From assembly GCA_003058495.1 (NCBI GenBank), contig QBVC01000027.1, positions 1 to 64,000 on the forward strand: DNA of 64,000 bases, written 5' to 3'. Under the pieces are notes generated by a model. That model searched no databases and was not told the DNA's origin. It saw nothing but the letters and a program-made list of their open reading frames with translations. The stretch is from a gamma proteobacterium symbiont of Ctena orbiculata (GTDB lineage Bacteria; Pseudomonadota; Gammaproteobacteria; Chromatiales; Chromatiaceae). The translations under genes and the position numbers were made by a program. How positions within the stretch are numbered: position 1 is the stretch's first letter; every line of letters begins with the position of its first letter. Below, piece after piece: positions 29,328 through 37,666 of the stretch.

Positions 29328-29963
29328 GTGGTTGGCGTGGTCGACAAAAAAGCGCATTGGCAGAATCTCTACCGGGAACGAGATCCGACAGACGTGAGTT
29401 GGCATCAATCCGAACCGGGACTATCGCTGCGACTCATCCATCACGGCGGGATTGGCCGGGACGAGGCGATAATCGATGTCGGCGGCGGTGCATCCCTGTT
29501 GGTGGACTGCCTCTGCAAAGAGGGATTCAGCAATCTGGCGGTACTGGATATCTCCGGGCGTGCGCTTGCATTCGCCAAACAGCGATTGGGTGATGCGGCT
29601 GAAGGCATAGAGTGGTTCGAGGCCGATGTCACCGAATTCATCCCGCCACACCCGTTTTCTCTCTGGCATGACCGGGCGGTCTTCCACTTTTTAACCGTTG
29701 AATCGGATAGAGCGAAATATATCGAGGCCTTGAACATGGCGCTGCGTCCGAGCGGTCATCTCATCATTGCGGCATTTGCCATCGGCGGCCCCGAGAAGTG
29801 CAGTGGTCTGGATATCGTGCAGTATGATGCAACCAAGCTGATGCGAGAATTGGGGAGGGGATTCGAATTGATGGAGCAGAGAGACGAACTCCACATCACA
29901 CCGTCAGGCGCTGAACAACAGTTTACCTATTATCGCTTTACGAAAGCGGATACCTCGGGATGA
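29328..29963 (+). CDS. SAM-dependent methyltransferase (class I)
   Basis: 211 aa, GTG start (another GTG 9 bases downstream is equally plausible). Residues DEAIIDVGGGASLLVDCL form the SAM-binding glycine loop; VLDISGRALAFAKQRLG and WFEADVTEF are the following acidic motifs, and LWHDRAVFHFLTVESDR fits the catalytic region. The overall order is that of small-molecule methyltransferases of the UbiE/Methyltransf_25 type; the substrate is not evident. The stop overlaps the next gene's start (ATGA), so translation is coupled to the 56-aa membrane protein. Confidence 0.85.
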   Translation: MVGVVDKKAHWQNLYRERDPTDVSWHQSEPGLSLRLIHHGGIGRDEAIIDVGGGASLLVDCLCKEGFSNLAVLDISGRALAFAKQRLGDAAEGIEWFEADVTEFIPPHPFSLWHDRAVFHFLTVESDRAKYIEALNMALRPSGHLIIAAFAIGGPEKCSGLDIVQYDATKLMRELGRGFELMEQRDELHITPSGAEQQFTYYRFTKADTSG

Positions 29964-30321: not shown

Positions 30322-30711
30322 ATGACTGATTCAGCGGGTACAACAACGGATTATAAGATCTCGATTGACTCGAACGCTCACTACATATTCGTTGATGTGC
30401 TCAGGCCCATGACCAGTGAACTTGGGCGCCGTTGTGCCGAAGATGCCGTAAGGTTGGGAGAACGAAATGGCATTAAATGTTTTCTGGTCGATCTCCGGGG
30501 TTCGCCAAATATCCAATCCACCCTTCCCAACTATCAATTCGCCTACCATGATATGAAAGAGCTTGGCTTTCCCAAGGATAGTCGATCCGCATTGCTGATA
30601 GACCCGGATGACAGGTCCCACGATTTCATGGAGACTGTTTTTAACAATGCCGGATACAACATCCGTATCTTCACGGATCCAGAGCGCGCCCTCGCCTGGT
30701 TGAGCAGTTAA
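30322..30711 (+). CDS. STAS/SpoIIAA-like protein
   Basis: 129 aa with an alpha/beta pattern like the SpoIIAA/STAS fold: DYKISIDSNAHYIFVDVLRPMTSE, then CFLVDLRGSPNIQST and SALLIDPDDRSHDFMET, ending in FTDPERALAWLSS. No clear phosphorylatable DSxG motif is visible. No signal peptide. Upstream is an AT-rich spacer (about 190 bases) after the small membrane gene with no evident promoter or terminator I can defend. Its 3' end overlaps by 4 bases the 3' end of the convergent kinase-nuclease fusion. Assignment is by pattern only. Confidence 0.65.
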   Translation: MTDSAGTTTDYKISIDSNAHYIFVDVLRPMTSELGRRCAEDAVRLGERNGIKCFLVDLRGSPNIQSTLPNYQFAYHDMKELGFPKDSRSALLIDPDDRSHDFMETVFNNAGYNIRIFTDPERALAWLSS

Positions 30712-32660
30712 CGGGATCCCATCGATACCGCCGCGCTGCTTGGGATAACTAGGTGGGGGCAGTGGGCCGCGATCTCCTCATAGAGCTTGAACGACGCCGC
30801 CTCATAGCGGCGGGAAAAATGGAAAGGGATCAGGTGGCGGACCGATGCCCGGGTGGCGATCTCGGCGCAGGCAATGGTGGTCAGATGGCCGGTGCGCCAG
30901 GCCTGCTCGGCATCTTTTTGCATGAATGGCGATTCGCAGAAGAGGGTGTGGGCCCCATCGGCAAGGGCGATGAGTCGCTCGCGATTGCCGGCTGTGTCGG
31001 CGAGATCGGTGGCGTAGACGATCTTACTGCCGGCCGTGGTCAGGGTGAGTTCCTCGGCCAGCCGTTGTACCTTTTCCCTGTTGCCGTTCGGCAGCGAGAG
31101 CCGGCTCTCCAGCTGTTGTTTCAGGATCAGCCGCTTCAGCTCGGTCAACCAGGGACCGGGCTCCAAGCCGCAGGCTTGCAAGCGCTCCTTGCGTATATTG
31201 ATCTGCAGCACCGGCTCGAAGGCGTAGGCGATGACAGGAATCCCGTGATCGAGAGTGACGGCACGGATCTGAAATTCGTCTTCAGCCAGCACGACACCCT
31301 CCCTGACGGGCTTTTCTCCGAGCTGTCGGCGGCCCGGTCTGCCGGCCTGTAGCTCAAACCGCTGCAAGCGATCGCCATGCAGTTCCGAAACCTCGAACCT
31401 GGGTCCCCGGTCACCGATGCGGTCCCAGTGGATCCCTTCGATCAGGTGTTCGATGCGGGTGGCCAGTCCGGGCGGACCGTAGAGCCGGCAGCCCGCCCTT
31501 TCACCGATGCGCACGCGCAGCAGCCAGAGAAAGCCGCAGATATGGTCCATGTGGGCGTGGCTGATGAAGATGTCGCTGACCTGGTGCGCCACCCGCCCCG
31601 GCAGCCGCGTGCCGTCGCCGAGATCGAAGAGCAGGCTGCGCCGCCGATGGGCCAGGCGCAGGTGGAGCTGGGGATCGCCGAAGACCCCGTTCATCAACAG
31701 CGCGGAGGCGCTCCCGGTCTGTACCATGGGGCGGTATCCCCCCTGCGGTGTCTGCGGATAGTCGGGTACCAGATCGGATGGGGGGAGGTAGCGCACCACG
31801 CTGTCGCCAAAGCGCTTGCCGGTTACCAGCATGCCGGATGAGTCGCGCACGGCATCGCGCACCAGCATCGACGAAGAGAGCCTCTCCCGGCGCGGCAGCC
31901 GCAGCCTCAGGGAATCCCCATCCATTGCGATGATCTCACCCAGGCCGACACTGGCCCCATCCCGGAGGAAGGCGGCCTGTTTGCCGATCCAGGCCTCGGG
32001 CGCCTTGCGCGGTGGTGTACCGAGGCTGGTTACCCGGTTCAACGAGACCTCCCTCACCTCGGCATTGGCCAGGTGGTCTTCCCATGCGCGGGTACGTTCG
32101 CGGTTGCGGCTGTTTTTGCCTGGCCGCCTGGCCAAGGGTGAGGCCGCTACCTTGACGACTTCGACCCTGAGTGCCTGCAGCTCCTGCTGGAGGGGCGGCG
32201 CATGGTTCTCACGCACCACCACTGCGACCAGATCGACGGCGGCTGCGGCGACGATCGAGGTCAGCAGTTCAGATCCCGCAACACCCCGTACCACCCCAGG
32301 CGCGTCGATCAACAGCCTGCCCTGGCCTGCCCTTCTTGCCAGCCTGCCCACCGCTTCGATCAGTGGCAAGCGGAAGCGGGCGGCATCGAGGCTGCAGAGG
32401 GCCTCATAGACCTCCAGCTTCCACTTGCCTTGCCGCCACACCCCCAGACTGATAGCACCGGGGGGGCCGAATGCCGGCATCCCCGGGTCGGCTGCCAGGC
32501 AATGGACCTCCCTTCCAGCCATGCCCAGCTGTTGCGCCAGCGTCCTCGCCAGGGTGGATTTGCCGATGCCCGGTTGCCCGAACAGCATCAGACGCCGCTT
32601 CCCGGTCGTGAGCAGCTCGATCAGGGCTAGGGGATGTTCGGCATCGATCGCTTGGTTCAT
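30708..32660 (-). CDS. Clp1-like polynucleotide kinase fused to RNase Z-like metallo-hydrolase
   Basis: 650 aa fusion. Residues ~15-205 match the Clp1/Grc3 polynucleotide 5'-kinase domain: Walker A GQPGIGKST (28-36), AADPGMPAFGPPGAISLG (57-73), LLIDAPGVVRG, and an R/K-rich lid (RRPGKNSRNRERTRAWEDHL). Residues ~205-300 form a linker domain. The C-terminal part (~310-650) is an RNase Z/beta-CASP-like MBL: FDLGDGTRL, SHAHMDH (H368, H370, D372, H373), DHGIPVIAYAFE, TDLADT, ESPF and HLTTIACAEIATRA plus HFSRRYE. The likely role is RNA end processing or repair: the kinase phosphorylates 5' OH ends and the hydrolase trims or cleaves. Function is inferred; the two activities in one chain are unusual. 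Its stop overlaps the STAS gene. Confidence 0.8.
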   Translation of the reverse strand: MNQAIDAEHPLALIELLTTGKRRLMLFGQPGIGKSTLARTLAQQLGMAGREVHCLAADPGMPAFGPPGAISLGVWRQGKWKLEVYEALCSLDAARFRLPLIEAVGRLARRAGQGRLLIDAPGVVRGVAGSELLTSIVAAAAVDLVAVVVRENHAPPLQQELQALRVEVVKVAASPLARRPGKNSRNRERTRAWEDHLANAEVREVSLNRVTSLGTPPRKAPEAWIGKQAAFLRDGASVGLGEIIAMDGDSLRLRLPRRERLSSSMLVRDAVRDSSGMLVTGKRFGDSVVRYLPPSDLVPDYPQTPQGGYRPMVQTGSASALLMNGVFGDPQLHLRLAHRRRSLLFDLGDGTRLPGRVAHQVSDIFISHAHMDHICGFLWLLRVRIGERAGCRLYGPPGLATRIEHLIEGIHWDRIGDRGPRFEVSELHGDRLQRFELQAGRPGRRQLGEKPVREGVVLAEDEFQIRAVTLDHGIPVIAYAFEPVLQINIRKERLQACGLEPGPWLTELKRLILKQQLESRLSLPNGNREKVQRLAEELTLTTAGSKIVYATDLADTAGNRERLIALADGAHTLFCESPFMQKDAEQAWRTGHLTTIACAEIATRASVRHLIPFHFSRRYEAASFKLYEEIAAHCPHLVIPSSAAVSMGSR

Positions 32661-32817: not shown

Positions 32818-33420
32818 ATGGCCAGTCTAAAACTCTACAACTACCCCAGATCCGGTAATTGTTACAAGGTGCGCCTGTTCCTCTCCATGCTGGGCCTCGA
32901 CTACGGGCGCATCGATATCGATCTGCTGAAGGGCGAGTCGCTGACCGATGAGTTCAAGCGGATCAATCCTCGCGGGCAGGTGCCGGTATTGGTGGATCGC
33001 GATCTGGTGATCTGGGATTCGATGGCGATACTGGTCTACCTCGCCAGGCGATATGGGGCATCCAACTGGCTGCCGACGGATCCGCTGGGAGAGGCCCGGG
33101 TGATGCAGTGGCTGGCGGTATCGGAGAACGAACTGCTCTACGGGCTTGCGCGGGCCCGTGCTGCGCTGATCTTTGGCAAGCCCTTCGACCTCGAGTTGTG
33201 TCAACAGGATGGCCGTGCCGGACTCTCGGTGTTGGAACTGAGGCTGGCGGAGGGCGACTGGTTGGCCGCAGCCGAGGTCTCCATCGCGGATATCGCCTGT
33301 TATCCCTATGTGGCGCTGGCCGCTGAAGGGGAGGTCCCGCTCCAACCCTATCCGGCTGTGTGCGCCTGGCTCGGGCGGGTTGAGGCATTGCCGGACTGGG
33401 TACCCTTTGCGACCGGGTGA
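32818..33420 (+). CDS. Glutathione S-transferase family protein
   Basis: 200 aa, cytosolic GST layout: N-terminal thioredoxin-like domain (KLYNYPRSGNCYKVRLFLSM, with the family cis-proline segment RGQVPVLVDRD) and an all-helical C-terminal domain from about residue 85. The active serine/cysteine position is SGNCYK. It resembles the bacterial Beta/Theta-like group with ClC-type CPYC absent. Substrate unknown; may detoxify electrophiles or use glutathione persulfide, which would suit sulfur oxidisers, but that is speculation. Single gene, no obvious operon partner. Confidence 0.88.
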   Translation: MASLKLYNYPRSGNCYKVRLFLSMLGLDYGRIDIDLLKGESLTDEFKRINPRGQVPVLVDRDLVIWDSMAILVYLARRYGASNWLPTDPLGEARVMQWLAVSENELLYGLARARAALIFGKPFDLELCQQDGRAGLSVLELRLAEGDWLAAAEVSIADIACYPYVALAAEGEVPLQPYPAVCAWLGRVEALPDWVPFATG

Positions 33421-33526: not shown

Positions 33527-34618
33527 TTGGAGCAGTATATCGGTGAGATTGGCCAGCTTCTGCTGAGCAAGGTAAACAGCGTCTACTCGCTCTTCGACTA
33601 CTTCGTGCTGGGCGTCAATGCCCTGATCTTTCTCTTCTCGTCGAAGATCGTCTCGAAGCTGGGATATGCCGAGAGTGACCGGCGCTACAATGCCTCTGTC
33701 TGGATGCTGCGCCTGGTCAATCTGACCCTGTTCGTGCTCTACTTTCTCGCGGTCTTCTTTACCGAAAAGGCGCGCCCGCTGTCGGTCACCGGTCTGACCC
33801 TGCTCTGCTCCTTTTTGCTGGCGCACCTGTTTCAGCTGCATGCATTGAAGCGCTACGGCCGCACCCGGGAGATCGCCGGCACAGAGACCTTGTCCCATAC
33901 CTACCAGTCGGAAGTCATCGGATTGATCGGCTGGGCCGTGGCCGCCCTGATCTCCTTTCTCATCGTCATCAATGTCTGGGATATGACCAGCTGGCTGCAC
34001 ACCACCTCGGTACTGGGGGCGGTTGTACTCATCGTCTACTCCACCAAGGATGTCTGGGCGCCCGACAATATCAATGGCCTGATCCTGCTCTACAACAACG
34101 ACGTGGAGCCCGGCTCGGTCGTCCAGGTGAGGGAGATCGATCTGCTGGCGGTGGTGGTGCGCACCACGCTTACCCAGACCGTGTTCAAGGATCTGCGTAG
34201 GAAGTACAAGATCCTGCTCCCCAACTCCCGCTTCCGTGCCTGCAAGATCGAGATCCTGACCAGCAACTCGAACGACAATCTCGATTGCAATGCGGATTTC
34301 AAGATCGGCTACGGTTTCAGCAGCGAGCAGATCGAGTCGTTCCTGACCCAGGTCTGGCAGTGGGTCGCCGATGACGGATCGTTGATCAACGAGGAGCGTC
34401 CGCCCAAGGTGCGCATCGTGGAGAACGGCGACCACGCGGTGGTATGGCGGCTCTCCTACCGCATCAACAGCGCCTACCGGCTCATCGAGGCGGAGTACCT
34501 GATCAACAGGGCGGCCTACGATCTCTCCTACGAACTGGGGATCGGCTTGAATACGCCGTTGACCCACTCCATCGATAATCCAACGCTGTCACACCTCGCT
34601 GAAAAGGCTGAACGATAA
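33527..34618 (+). CDS. MscS-like mechanosensitive channel family protein
   Basis: 363 aa, TTG start with a weak GGGAAGGG ribosome site. Four or five N-terminal spans (residues ~20-45, 60-85, 90-110, 130-155, 160-178) are followed by the MscS-type region DNINGLILLYNNDVEPGSVVQ and VVVRTTLTQTVFKDLRRKYKILLPNSRF, then a soluble alpha/beta C-terminal domain. It resembles small-conductance channels but the glycine/alanine-rich pore helix of MscS is not obvious, so it may be a divergent member or a transporter. It ends ~140 bases before soeA. Confidence 0.75.
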   Translation: MEQYIGEIGQLLLSKVNSVYSLFDYFVLGVNALIFLFSSKIVSKLGYAESDRRYNASVWMLRLVNLTLFVLYFLAVFFTEKARPLSVTGLTLLCSFLLAHLFQLHALKRYGRTREIAGTETLSHTYQSEVIGLIGWAVAALISFLIVINVWDMTSWLHTTSVLGAVVLIVYSTKDVWAPDNINGLILLYNNDVEPGSVVQVREIDLLAVVVRTTLTQTVFKDLRRKYKILLPNSRFRACKIEILTSNSNDNLDCNADFKIGYGFSSEQIESFLTQVWQWVADDGSLINEERPPKVRIVENGDHAVVWRLSYRINSAYRLIEAEYLINRAAYDLSYELGIGLNTPLTHSIDNPTLSHLAEKAER

Positions 34619-34759: not shown

Positions 34760-37666
34760 ATGCTGGATCCCACTGCCCATTCCGACAGCGACATGGGGCG
34801 TATCGAGGTCAAGGAGACCACCTGCTACATGTGTGCCTGCCGCTGCGGCATTCGCGTGACCCTGCGTGACGGCGAGGTGCGTTATATCGAGGGCAATCCC
34901 GACCATCCCTTGAACAAGGGGGTGATCTGCGCCAAGGGCTCCTCTGGCATCATGAAGCAGTACTCGCCGGCCCGTCTCACCAGGCCCCTGCTGCGCAAGC
35001 CCGGCGCGGAGCGGGGCGCCTCCGAGTTCGAGGAGATCTCCTGGGAGCGGGCATTCGAGATCATGGAGGAACGTCTCGGTGGCATCCGCGCCGAGGACCC
35101 GAAGAAGTTCGCCCTGTTCACCGGCCGCGACCAGATGCAGGCGCTGACCGGCATGTTCGCCAAGCAGTTCGGCACCCCCAACTATGCCGCCCACGGCGGC
35201 TTCTGCTCGGTCAACATGGCGGCCGGGCTGATCTACACCATCGGCGGCTCTTTCTGGGAGTTCGGCGGCCCCGACCTGGAGCGCTCCAAGCTCTTCATCA
35301 TGATCGGCACCGCCGAGGATCACCACTCCAACCCGATGAAGATCGCGCTGGCAGACTTCAAGCGCCGCGGTGGGCGTTTCATCTCCATCAACCCGATCCG
35401 CACCGGCTACTCGGCCATCGCCGACGAGTGGGTGCCGATCAAACCGGGCACCGACGGCGCCCTGCTGCTGGCGATCATCCGTGAGCTGATCCAGACCGGT
35501 CTCTACGACCGGGAGTTCCTGATCAAGTACACCAACGCCGCCGAGCTGGTGGTGGACGATCCCCAGCGGGACGACCATGGTCTCTTCCGCCGCTTCGAAA
35601 CCCACATCGAGGAGGGCTGCTTCGACCCGGAGAACAAGCTCTGGTGGGACCGGGAGCTCGACCGGGAGATCTCCACCCACACCCCCGGCACCGATCCCCG
35701 TCTCCTCGGCAGCTTCACCCTGGAGGACGGCACCCCGGTAAAGCCCGCCATGCAGCTGCTCAAGGAGCGGGTCGAGGAGTACACCCCGGAGTGGGCCGAG
35801 GACATCACCGGCATCCCCGCCGGGACCATCCGCCGCCTGGCCCACGAGATGGGGGTGGTGGCCCGGGACCAGAAGATCGAACTGCCGATCCAGTGGACCG
35901 ACTCCTGGGGCAACGAGCACGACAGCGTCACCGGCAACCCGGTCTCCTTCCACGCCATGCGGGGCCTGGCGGCCCACTCCAACGGCTTCCAGACCATCCG
36001 CGCCCTGGGCATTCTGATGACCATCCTCGGCACCATCGACCGCCCCGGCGGCTTCCGCCACAAGGCGCCGTTCCCGCGGCCGATCCCGCCCTGTCCCAAG
36101 CCGCCCAGGGGACCGCAAGGGGTACAGCCCAACACCCCGCTGGACGGCATGCCCCTGGGCTGGCCGGCCAAACCGGACGATCTCTTCGTCGACGGGGCGG
36201 GGGAGGCGGTACGCATCGACAAGGCCTTCTCCTGGGAGTACCCCCTCTCGGTCCACGGCCTGATGCACAATGTCATCACCAACGCCTGGCGCGGCGACCC
36301 CTACAAGATCGACACCCTGCTGCTGTTCATGGCCAACATGGCCTGGAACTCGTCGATGAACACGGAGAGCGTGCGCGAGATGCTGCGGGACAGGGACGAG
36401 AACGGGGAGTACAAGATCCCCTTCATCATCGTCGCCGACGCCTTCCAATCCGAGACCGTGGCCTTCGCCGACCTGGTGCTGCCCGACACCAGCTATCTGG
36501 AGCGCCACGATGCCATGTCGATGCTCGACCGGCCCATCTCCGAGTACGACGGCCCGGTGGATTCGGTACGCATCCCGGTGGTTGAGCCCCGGGGCGACTG
36601 CAAGCCCTTCCAGGAGGTGCTGATCGAGCTGGGCAGCCGGCTCGGCCTGCCCGCCTTCGTCAAAGGGGACGGCAGCCGCAAGTTCCGCAACTACCCCGAC
36701 TTCGTCACCAACTACGAGACCTCCCCGGGTTCCGGCATCGGCTTTCTCGCCGGCTGGCGGGGCAAGGGAGGGGAGAAGTTCCTCAAGGGCGAGCCCAATC
36801 CGCGCCAGTGGGAGATGTACAAGGAGAACGGCTGCGTCTACCACTACGAGCTGCCCAGGTCCTACCAGTACATGCGCAACTGGAACCAGGGTTACCTGGA
36901 GTGGGCCCGCTACCACGGTATGACCCGCTACGTGGAGCCGATCACCCTGCATCTCTACTCCGAGGTGCTGCAGCGCTTCCGCCTCGCCGCCCAGGGCAAG
37001 CTGCCCGGCAAGCAGCCCCCCGAGCGCCTGCGCAAGCGGGTGGCGGAGCACTTCGATCCGCTGCCCTTCTACACCGCGCCGCTGGAGCACAAGCTGGTCG
37101 ACACCCACCACTATCCGATCAACGCCCTGACCCAGCGGCCCATGGCCATGTACCACTCCTGGGACTCCCAGAACGCCTGGCTGCGGCAGATTCACACCCA
37201 CAACTATCTCTTCGTCAATCCCAAGCTGGGGGAGGCCTGCGGCTTCGGCGACGGGGAGTGGATCTGGGTCGAGTCCCCCACCAGCAAGGTGCGCTGCATG
37301 GCCCGCTTCACCGAGGCGGTGGAGCCGGGCACGGTCTGGACCTGGAACGCCATCGGCAAGGCCGCCGGCGCCTGGGGCCTGTCGCCCAGGGCCAACGAGT
37401 CGCAGAAGGGATTCCTGCTCAACCATCTGATCGCCGAGGAGCTGCCCCCCTGCGAGGCGGGCGACCATATGTCCAACTCCGACCCGGTCACCGGCCAGGC
37501 CGCCTGGTTCGACGTACGGGTGCGCCTCTACCCGGCGGGAGCGGAAGAACCGAAGCAGACCTCGCCCCAGTTCGAACCAATGAAACGGCTGCCGGGGCAG
37601 GAATCGCGGCGCGGGAAATGGCAGGGGTACTTTGCCGGGAGGTTTCGGCGGAAAAAAGAAAAGTAG
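34760..37666 (+). CDS. soeA: Sulfite dehydrogenase catalytic subunit (molybdopterin)
   Basis: 968 aa of the DMSO-reductase superfamily. The N-terminal [4Fe-4S] site is CYMCACRCG with C22, C25, C29, and the fourth cysteine in GVICAKG. No twin-arginine signal, so it works in the cytoplasm, which is the mark of SoeA rather than exported relatives. Molybdopterin contacts include the WSWGNEHDS-like stretch (TDSWGNEHDSVTGNP). SoeABC oxidises sulfite to sulfate and passes electrons to the quinone pool. The gene uses almost only G/C in third positions, more than its neighbours, suggesting high expression. It is followed by soeB after a 146-base repeat-bearing gap. Confidence 0.93.
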   Translation: MLDPTAHSDSDMGRIEVKETTCYMCACRCGIRVTLRDGEVRYIEGNPDHPLNKGVICAKGSSGIMKQYSPARLTRPLLRKPGAERGASEFEEISWERAFEIMEERLGGIRAEDPKKFALFTGRDQMQALTGMFAKQFGTPNYAAHGGFCSVNMAAGLIYTIGGSFWEFGGPDLERSKLFIMIGTAEDHHSNPMKIALADFKRRGGRFISINPIRTGYSAIADEWVPIKPGTDGALLLAIIRELIQTGLYDREFLIKYTNAAELVVDDPQRDDHGLFRRFETHIEEGCFDPENKLWWDRELDREISTHTPGTDPRLLGSFTLEDGTPVKPAMQLLKERVEEYTPEWAEDITGIPAGTIRRLAHEMGVVARDQKIELPIQWTDSWGNEHDSVTGNPVSFHAMRGLAAHSNGFQTIRALGILMTILGTIDRPGGFRHKAPFPRPIPPCPKPPRGPQGVQPNTPLDGMPLGWPAKPDDLFVDGAGEAVRIDKAFSWEYPLSVHGLMHNVITNAWRGDPYKIDTLLLFMANMAWNSSMNTESVREMLRDRDENGEYKIPFIIVADAFQSETVAFADLVLPDTSYLERHDAMSMLDRPISEYDGPVDSVRIPVVEPRGDCKPFQEVLIELGSRLGLPAFVKGDGSRKFRNYPDFVTNYETSPGSGIGFLAGWRGKGGEKFLKGEPNPRQWEMYKENGCVYHYELPRSYQYMRNWNQGYLEWARYHGMTRYVEPITLHLYSEVLQRFRLAAQGKLPGKQPPERLRKRVAEHFDPLPFYTAPLEHKLVDTHHYPINALTQRPMAMYHSWDSQNAWLRQIHTHNYLFVNPKLGEACGFGDGEWIWVESPTSKVRCMARFTEAVEPGTVWTWNAIGKAAGAWGLSPRANESQKGFLLNHLIAEELPPCEAGDHMSNSDPVTGQAAWFDVRVRLYPAGAEEPKQTSPQFEPMKRLPGQESRRGKWQGYFAGRFRRKKEK

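Follow-up and report, generated by a model that had tools for sequence, protein, structure and literature searches.

A Clp1/Grc3-type kinase module and an RNase Z-type metallo-hydrolase joined in one polypeptide of a gammaproteobacterial symbiont of Ctena orbiculata

A single reading frame for two enzyme modules

We analyzed a 64,000-nucleotide stretch of DNA (the window: contig QBVC01000027.1, positions 1 to 64,000 of the forward strand, assembly GCA_003058495.1) from a gammaproteobacterial symbiont of Ctena orbiculata. On its reverse strand lies a gene whose product joins a Clp1/Grc3-type P-loop kinase module to an RNase Z-type metallo-hydrolase (Table 1). The open reading frame (ORF) has 650 codons for 650 amino acids (aa), an ATG start and no internal stops. 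An earlier reading of this DNA, made from the letters alone (the sequence-only reading), had proposed this one-polypeptide architecture; every motif that it listed was found in the translation, and the uninterrupted frame, the profile matches, structure prediction and the fold search agree with it. The frameshift artefact that it raised as a concern is ruled out, and the same chain was found at 48-83% identity in 19 other aligned genomes. The resulting alignment (A1) holds 20 homologues, with start codons picked by hand and with the copy of genome G345 lacking its last residues at a contig end. It is exceedingly improbable that a frameshift, a misassembly or the chance juxtaposition of two genes underlies the architecture: no point in support of such an origin was found, whereas the 20 copies align end to end and both halves are under purifying selection. 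The architecture is conserved and its catalytic positions are intact.

Table 1. Features of the fusion gene and its flanking genes in the window. Residue conservation is given for the 20 aligned fusions of A1 and, after the plus sign, for 3 further fusions.
Feature	Position	Strand	Basis
Fusion gene (kinase module and RNase Z-type metallo-hydrolase)	30708..32660	-	ORF, Pfam, NCBIfam, homologue alignment
Clp1/Grc3-type P-loop kinase domain, aa 1-200	32061..32660	-	CLP1_P match; model; Foldseek
Walker A, aa 28-36, GQPGIGKST	32553..32579	-	G28, G31, G33, K34 in 20/20 + 3/3
D58-P59-G60, Clp1 'DxGQ' position	32481..32489	-	D58 in 20/20 + 3/3
Lid arginines R185 and R189, aa 185-189	32094..32108	-	20/20 + 3/3; within CLP1_P match aa 109-197
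Small beta-domain after the kinase, aa 201-283	31812..32060	-	Confident strands in model; Foldseek
Low-confidence linker, aa 284-311	31728..31811	-	Predicted local distance difference test score (pLDDT) <50
RNase Z-type metallo-beta-lactamase-fold domain, aa 312-640	30741..31727	-	NF002558, E 1.5e-86; Foldseek 2fk6, 1.7e-19
HxHxDH metal motif, aa 368-373	31542..31559	-	20/20 + 3/3
H472, RNase Z motif III metal-ligand position	31245..31247	-	20/20; aligned to B. subtilis RNase Z
Insertion aa 474-545 with invariant W504..L508-K509 core	31026..31241	-	Alignment to B. subtilis RNase Z 1y44; 20/20
D552, metal-ligand position	31005..31007	-	20/20
H614 of HFSxRY motif, metal-ligand position	30819..30821	-	20/20
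Convergent neighbour gene, 129 aa, weakly SpoIIAA/STAS-like	30322..30711	+	ORF list; Pfam
Glutathione S-transferase gene, divergent from fusion	32818..33420	+	Pfam

The N-terminal half matches the Pfam family CLP1_P (E 1.7e-17) with 64.3 bits against a cut-off of 26.6, and the Clp1/Grc3-type assignment, for which the sequence-only reading had named this comparison as a check, stands. Modelled alone, this half reached a pLDDT of 93 and a predicted template modelling score (pTM) of 0.90. In a Foldseek search with that model, the top 22 entries were Clp1, TSEN-Clp1, Las1-Grc3 and LAS1L-NOL9 structures (1.1e-16 to 2.2e-6), the identity of the matched chains being inferred from entry titles, which name only the complex, and from chain lengths; the next kind of protein, a bacterial tyrosine kinase, came no closer than 7e-4. 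Three of the 22 were RNA-bound C. elegans Clp1 entries. With the full-length model, the kinase side matched a chain of the human TSEN complex, which we read as CLP1 (6.3e-15), and RNA-bound C. elegans Clp1 (2.1e-14). A profile comparison with four standalone bacterial Clp1 proteins (A2) aligned residues 16-212 with a probability of 98.5 (E 2.4e-15). An identity as MeaB, ArsA, AAA or another P-loop ATPase, membership in another ATPase family being something that the earlier reading had said would overturn its assignment, was rejected, since the fold search gives places 1-22 to Clp1/Grc3/Nol9 entries and the generic ATPase matches obtained in Protein Data Bank (PDB) searches by sequence are confined to the P-loop. 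This half is securely a member of the Clp1 fold family. Its best Foldseek alignments with Clp1 run over some 300 columns, gaps included, of the 283-residue query, and we therefore read the small beta-domain as the likely counterpart of the Clp1/Grc3 C-terminal domain; this assignment comes from structure only, because the profile comparison with standalone Clp1 ends at residue 212.

Within the kinase module, G28, G31, G33, K34, D58, G60, D119, G122, R125, R185 and R189 are invariant in all 23 fusions compared. The D58-P59-G60 segment aligns with DADVGQ of standalone Clp1, and in A1 both the D and the G of the DxGQ position, as well as the Gly of the clasp TxG motif, are kept in 20/20. These motif names follow the main text of PMC6777427, and their placing on the fusion is by profile comparison with standalone Clp1.

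The C-terminal half matches Lactamase_B_2 of Pfam (E 8.6e-12) and, over residues 320-639, the NCBIfam 'ribonuclease Z' subfamily model NF002558 (E 1.5e-86). Its earlier assignment as RNase Z-like is borne out by this match, though in bits it lies below the model's cut-off, and by the fold search. When the PDB was searched by sequence, B. subtilis RNase Z was the best match (2.1e-13) and human ELAC1 the third (1.9e-8). AlphaFold2, run on the full chain with A1, returned a mean pLDDT of 82.5 and a pTM of 0.54; because this pTM is low, the relative placement of the two halves is not predicted. The full model matched tRNA-bound RNase Z (2fk6) at 1.7e-19 with a TM score of 0.79 by target length, and also E. 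coli ZiPD and ELAC1 (7.8e-12). The metal-ligand positions H368, H370, D372, H373, H472, D552 and H614, together with the nearby E576 and H592, are invariant in 23/23; one of the 3 further fusions has a His at Y619. By its residues, the active site of the RNase Z-type half is complete. The insertion at residues 474-545, between motifs III and IV, sits where RNase Z has its flexible arm.

Distribution and evolution of the fusion

The sequence-only reading considered this combination unusual for a bacterial protein. It is indeed rare, with 14 fusions, plus 2 candidates cut by contig ends, among 369 class genomes, but it is not unique: a taxonomic search showed the same fusion in 9 of the 22 genus genomes and across 14 families, of which 12 are represented in A1 and two more (f171 and f207) are not, and one lies outside the class. 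When 56 genomes, our own included, were searched with the fusion protein, 15 matched, 10 of them over the full chain (nine of the genus and G042 of another family). CLP1_P was found in 9/22 genus genomes, always in a frame of 652-701 aa; these nine also have a TIGR02651 RNase Z match above 100 bits. The 13 genus genomes without CLP1_P have TIGR02651 matches of at most 39.7 bits in 12 cases and none at 1e-5 in one. Across the 369 class genomes, NF002558 was matched at 1e-10 in 39 and CLP1_P at 1e-4 or better in 34. Judged by frames and motifs, 14 of these 34 are fusions, one of them truncated close to its end at a contig edge, and four carry standalone Clp1 genes (G205, G366, G155 and G269). 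The other 16 match in the P-loop part only, in short frames; no frame of at least 180 aa holding both motifs was present in the 12 of them for which loci were available, the remaining four being without a locus. In G346 and G323 a fusion-type RNase Z half is cut by a contig end. Among 398 genomes of the phylum, A1 matched 11 at 1e-20, five of which are fusions: our own genome, G764, G474 (where the fusion is split over two contigs), and G445 and G532, both outside the class.

The relatives of the fusion protein include those of a gammaproteobacterial symbiont of Ctena orbiculata (83% identity) and of a Candidatus Thiodiazotropha (66%). Fusions outside the genus are only 48-53% identical to the window protein, and the fusion is therefore not recent. 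For the kinase module, identity to the window protein ranges from 41 to 82%, compared with 48-83% for the whole chain. In a tree of 48 RNase Z domains, 26 labelled as fused are separated from 22 standalone domains by a branch with support 100/100 and a long stem of 1.18, two of the fused labels (L115 and L116) having been assigned from score and contig edge only. The fused domains thus form one fully supported group, which is compatible with a single origin of the fusion. The ratio of nonsynonymous to synonymous substitution rates (dN/dS) over 8 genus pairs was 0.19-0.38 in the kinase part, compared with 0.15-0.33 in the metallo-beta-lactamase part, and both halves are under purifying selection. 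A viral origin found no support, since a scan of viral contigs by two short peptide patterns gave no relative. Of the 22 plasmid records that matched, not one contained 80% of the query at a single place; among the ten listed of these 22, coverage was 42-48% of the query, all in the RNase Z half.

A putative role in RNA end processing

The fusion was compared with known systems. It shares with the Clp1/Grc3/Nol9 5'-OH kinases (Ts-Clp1, C. elegans CLPF-1) the kinase fold with its beta-domain, the P-loop, the DxGQ Asp and the lid arginines, but differs in that the DxGQ Gln is replaced, the clasp Thr is mostly lost and an RNase Z domain is attached. Eukaryotic Clp1 has an extra N-terminal domain, for which the 27 residues that precede the P-loop of the fusion leave no room. 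Short tRNase Z enzymes (RNase Z, ELAC1; NCBIfam PRK02126) have the metal ligands, HFSxRY, the arm-like insertion and the fold in common with it, whereas the fusion scores below the curated cut-offs, falls in a tree group apart from the 22 standalone relatives and has a kinase attached. The concept of one chain that combines a 5'-kinase with a 3'-end activity is also found in T4 Pnkp and in the kinase-cyclic phosphodiesterase (CPDase) half of fungal and plant tRNA ligases, but the folds there are different. In Las1-Grc3 and LAS1L-NOL9, an RNase is likewise paired with a Clp1-family kinase; Las1, however, is a HEPN nuclease in a separate chain, whereas the nuclease-like half of the fusion is a metallo-hydrolase in the same chain. 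In G205 both enzyme families stand side by side as two separate proteins: a standalone RNase Z gene (L100:8171-9226) lies 79 bp downstream of a co-oriented standalone Clp1 gene (L100:7153-8091, E 1e-31), whose product retains both DxGQ and the clasp Thr.

Both domains were already known, and, according to a literature search of partial coverage, which found no description of a fusion of the two families, their fusion would be the new part. To our knowledge, Clp1-type kinases have no established role in bacteria. The conserved covalent link to an RNase Z-type hydrolase offers a concrete hint to their pathway, and it brings together in a single chain two activities that can be tested. According to the main text of PMC6777427, few bacteria have a kinase of this type (14 of 1,543 species), and bacterial Ts-Clp1 is a demonstrated RNA 5'-kinase; a word search of that text returned 0 occurrences each of RNase Z, lactamase and fusion.

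On balance, we favor the view that the protein is a single-chain accessory enzyme for RNA end processing, made up of a 5'-kinase half and a 3'-end phosphodiesterase half. Going by its family, the front half, a Clp1/Grc3-type module, would most likely bind ATP and phosphorylate 5'-OH ends of RNA; kinase activity of this half is likely but not certain. By the same token, the back half would be a zinc phosphodiesterase of the RNase Z type that, with its tRNA-arm-like insertion, most likely acts at RNA 3' ends, and both halves would be active.

Several observations weigh against this view. By sequence alone, PDB searches rank generic P-loop ATPases (Midasin, ArsA) above Clp1. The DxGQ Gln is lost in 20/20 (M, S, N, R or T stands instead) and in 3/3, and the clasp Thr is kept in 4/20 and in 0/3, that is, lost in 19/23; because of these losses, the kinase could be weak, altered or dead. 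dN/dS is higher in the kinase part in 8/8 pairs. On the other side of the chain, the RNase Z scores fall under the curated cut-offs (NF002558, 290.5 against 315; TIGR02651, 113.5 against 292.95), for which reason we call this half RNase Z-type and not RNase Z. A profile search at E 0.001 found no PF09414 RNA ligase in this genome, and PF09414 ligases are present in only 2/21 fusion carriers. RtcB, present in 17/21 carriers, joins unhealed ends and would need no kinase. The DUF6763, PGA_cap and PBP-family genes that recur near the fusion and near standalone RNase Z genes (see below) have no RNA-related label, which tells slightly against RNA repair. Finally, RNase Z cleavage leaves a 5'-phosphate and a 3'-OH, according to the text of PMC9181182, and the two halves would therefore not work in series on one cut. 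With a 5'-phosphate already present on the RNase Z product, the two activities would fit best if each worked on a different end of a broken RNA.

We tentatively suggest that the halves act on the two sides of one broken RNA, such as a nuclease-cut tRNA. The kinase would provide the 5'-OH fragment with a 5'-phosphate while the RNase Z-type half would leave a clean 3'-OH on the other fragment, after which the RNA might be religated, given a new tail or passed on to decay. Human ELAC1 reportedly repairs tRNAs that are cut in ribosome quality control, by removing a 2',3'-cyclic phosphate. In a more specific version, which we consider possible but somewhat doubtful, a 5'-kinase of the Clp1 type would be combined in one chain with an RNase Z resembling ELAC1, the latter clearing 2',3'-cyclic phosphates or damaged 3' ends, to heal both ends of nuclease-cut tRNAs; with the same degree of doubt, bacteria would then have arrived independently at what T4 Pnkp and the kinase-CPDase part of tRNA ligases do. 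End healing of both RNA ends is plausible; RNA decay and a dead-kinase scaffold remain serious rivals.

We also considered whether the fusion is the housekeeping tRNase Z for tRNA 3' maturation, with an incidental kinase. No other TIGR02651 match in the genome is strong (113.7 bits for the fusion, 31.6 and 29.8 for the other two) and its RNase Z active site is complete, but encoded CCA normally blocks tRNase Z, and CCA is encoded by all 39 of the tRNA genes found in this genome. In addition, no RNase Z match above 39.7 bits is present in the 13 of 22 genus genomes without CLP1_P. On these grounds the fusion is not an obligatory tRNA 3'-maturase, a routine role in tRNA 3' processing is weakened, and the housekeeping explanation is improbable; the same two facts, the encoded CCA and the absence of the protein from 13 genus genomes, are why the enzyme would be accessory and dispensable rather than essential. 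That the tRNA genes found already carry CCA also suggests that RNase Z-type enzymes do more than tRNA 3' maturation. Sampled tRNAs encode CCA in the fusion carriers G095 (20/21, from 43 tRNA matches) and G445 (8/8, from 41), and likewise in G205 (8/8, from 48) and G310 (20/20, from 43), which have standalone RNase Z. A contrast between the two kinds of carriers was thus not seen in the sampled tRNAs of these four genomes, and because G205 and G310 also encode CCA, the trait belongs to the wider group and is not specific to the fusion. The sole tRNA without CCA among the 21 sampled in G095 is L211 (G095:C1:90615-90687).

If the protein served RNA decay instead of repair, its kinase would make the 5'-phosphate on which 5'-sensing nucleases depend while the RNase Z-type half would trim 3' ends; in a comparable way, cleavage by Las1 and phosphorylation by Grc3 supply exonucleases with substrates. 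The nearest folds of the kinase are Clp1 and Grc3, Las1-Grc3 processing complexes included, and the presence of PF09414 ligases in so few carriers (2/21) fits decay as well. However, no decay gene is found among the recurrent neighbours and the tRNA-arm-like insertion suggests tRNA-like substrates, and we regard this explanation as unlikely. The protein might also be an RNase Z-type hydrolase whose Clp1-like domain binds ATP and serves to hold or position RNA but is dead as a catalyst, a state for which yeast Clp1, which binds ATP and lacks kinase activity, is a precedent. Such a domain would account for the loss of the clasp Thr in 16/20 and of the DxGQ Gln in 20/20, and it agrees with the kinase part having the higher dN/dS in every pair and an identity range (41-82%) below that of the whole chain (48-83%). 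The retention of the P-loop Lys, D58 and the lid arginines in 20/20 and 3/3 nevertheless goes beyond the needs of a scaffold, and a dead kinase seems to us rather unlikely.

Neighbouring genes and further observations

The sequence-only reading had named a convergent STAS-like gene as the only close neighbour of the fusion. Convergence and a 4-base overlap (30708-30711) were found as described, but the STAS label is weak, the best Pfam match of the 129-aa product being SpoIIAA-like at E 0.11, and this gene is not the only close neighbour, since a divergent glutathione S-transferase gene lies on the other side. The 129-aa gene is near the fusion in 3 of 8 genus loci (the window, L082 and L087). 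In close relatives, the genes flanking the fusion are retained.

Across families the surroundings of the fusion vary. Several kinds of genes recur there. A DUF6763 gene lies directly upstream of the fusion on the same strand in G086 (L090:9742-10065) and G070 (L095:2190-2495), and in the same position relative to standalone RNase Z in G170 (L106:7095-7403) and G344 (L107:9347-9670); L104 has a fifth copy, at a distance of about 7 kb. The DUF6763 protein is a possible partner of these RNase Z-type enzymes. A gene of the capsule-synthesis-labelled family PGA_cap is next to the fusion in G370 (L097:3559-4794) and about 5 kb from it in G229 (L092:1036-2037); such a gene also adjoins standalone RNase Z in G583, G599 and G570 (L169:2538-3419, L170:574-1491 and L171:409-1332, respectively). 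In three families (L086, L088 and L091) a PBP-family gene is no more than 6 kb away from the fusion, and one is also near the L169 RNase Z.

In G007 (L086:6811-13188), RtcB and archease share the strand of the fusion; a single nitroreductase-family gene of opposite orientation stands between fusion and RtcB, and a phosphoribosyltransferase gene is found downstream. In G086 RtcB is about 11 kb from the fusion on the same contig. Our own genome encodes an RtcB ligase on another contig. A linkage of the fusion to RNA ligases was rejected, because PF09414 (4/37 genomes: the carriers G070 and G095, and G018 and G269 without a fusion match) and RtcB (39/48 genomes, carriers and non-carriers alike) occur irrespective of it. 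RtcB frames measure 390-427 aa in the genus genomes that have one, except in G007 (509 aa), and mostly about 480-550 aa in other families.

At a single locus, in G042 (L012:770-1186), a PIN-domain gene (Pfam E 8.1e-14) follows the fusion in the same orientation after some 300 bp. Elsewhere in the window, positions 33527-34618 encode a 363-aa protein with no Pfam match over the cut-off (best PF04750, E 0.0023), and positions 34760-37666 a 968-aa molybdopterin oxidoreductase that is found, 93-96% identical, near the fusion in 4 of 7 relatives' loci. A role in antiphage defence was considered and set aside, the PADLOC matches being weak: a methyltransferase gene near the fusion (29328-29963) matches mad2 (E 3e-10), and the fusion itself has a weak PADLOC match to mad8 over residues 13-196 (E 1.9e-6).

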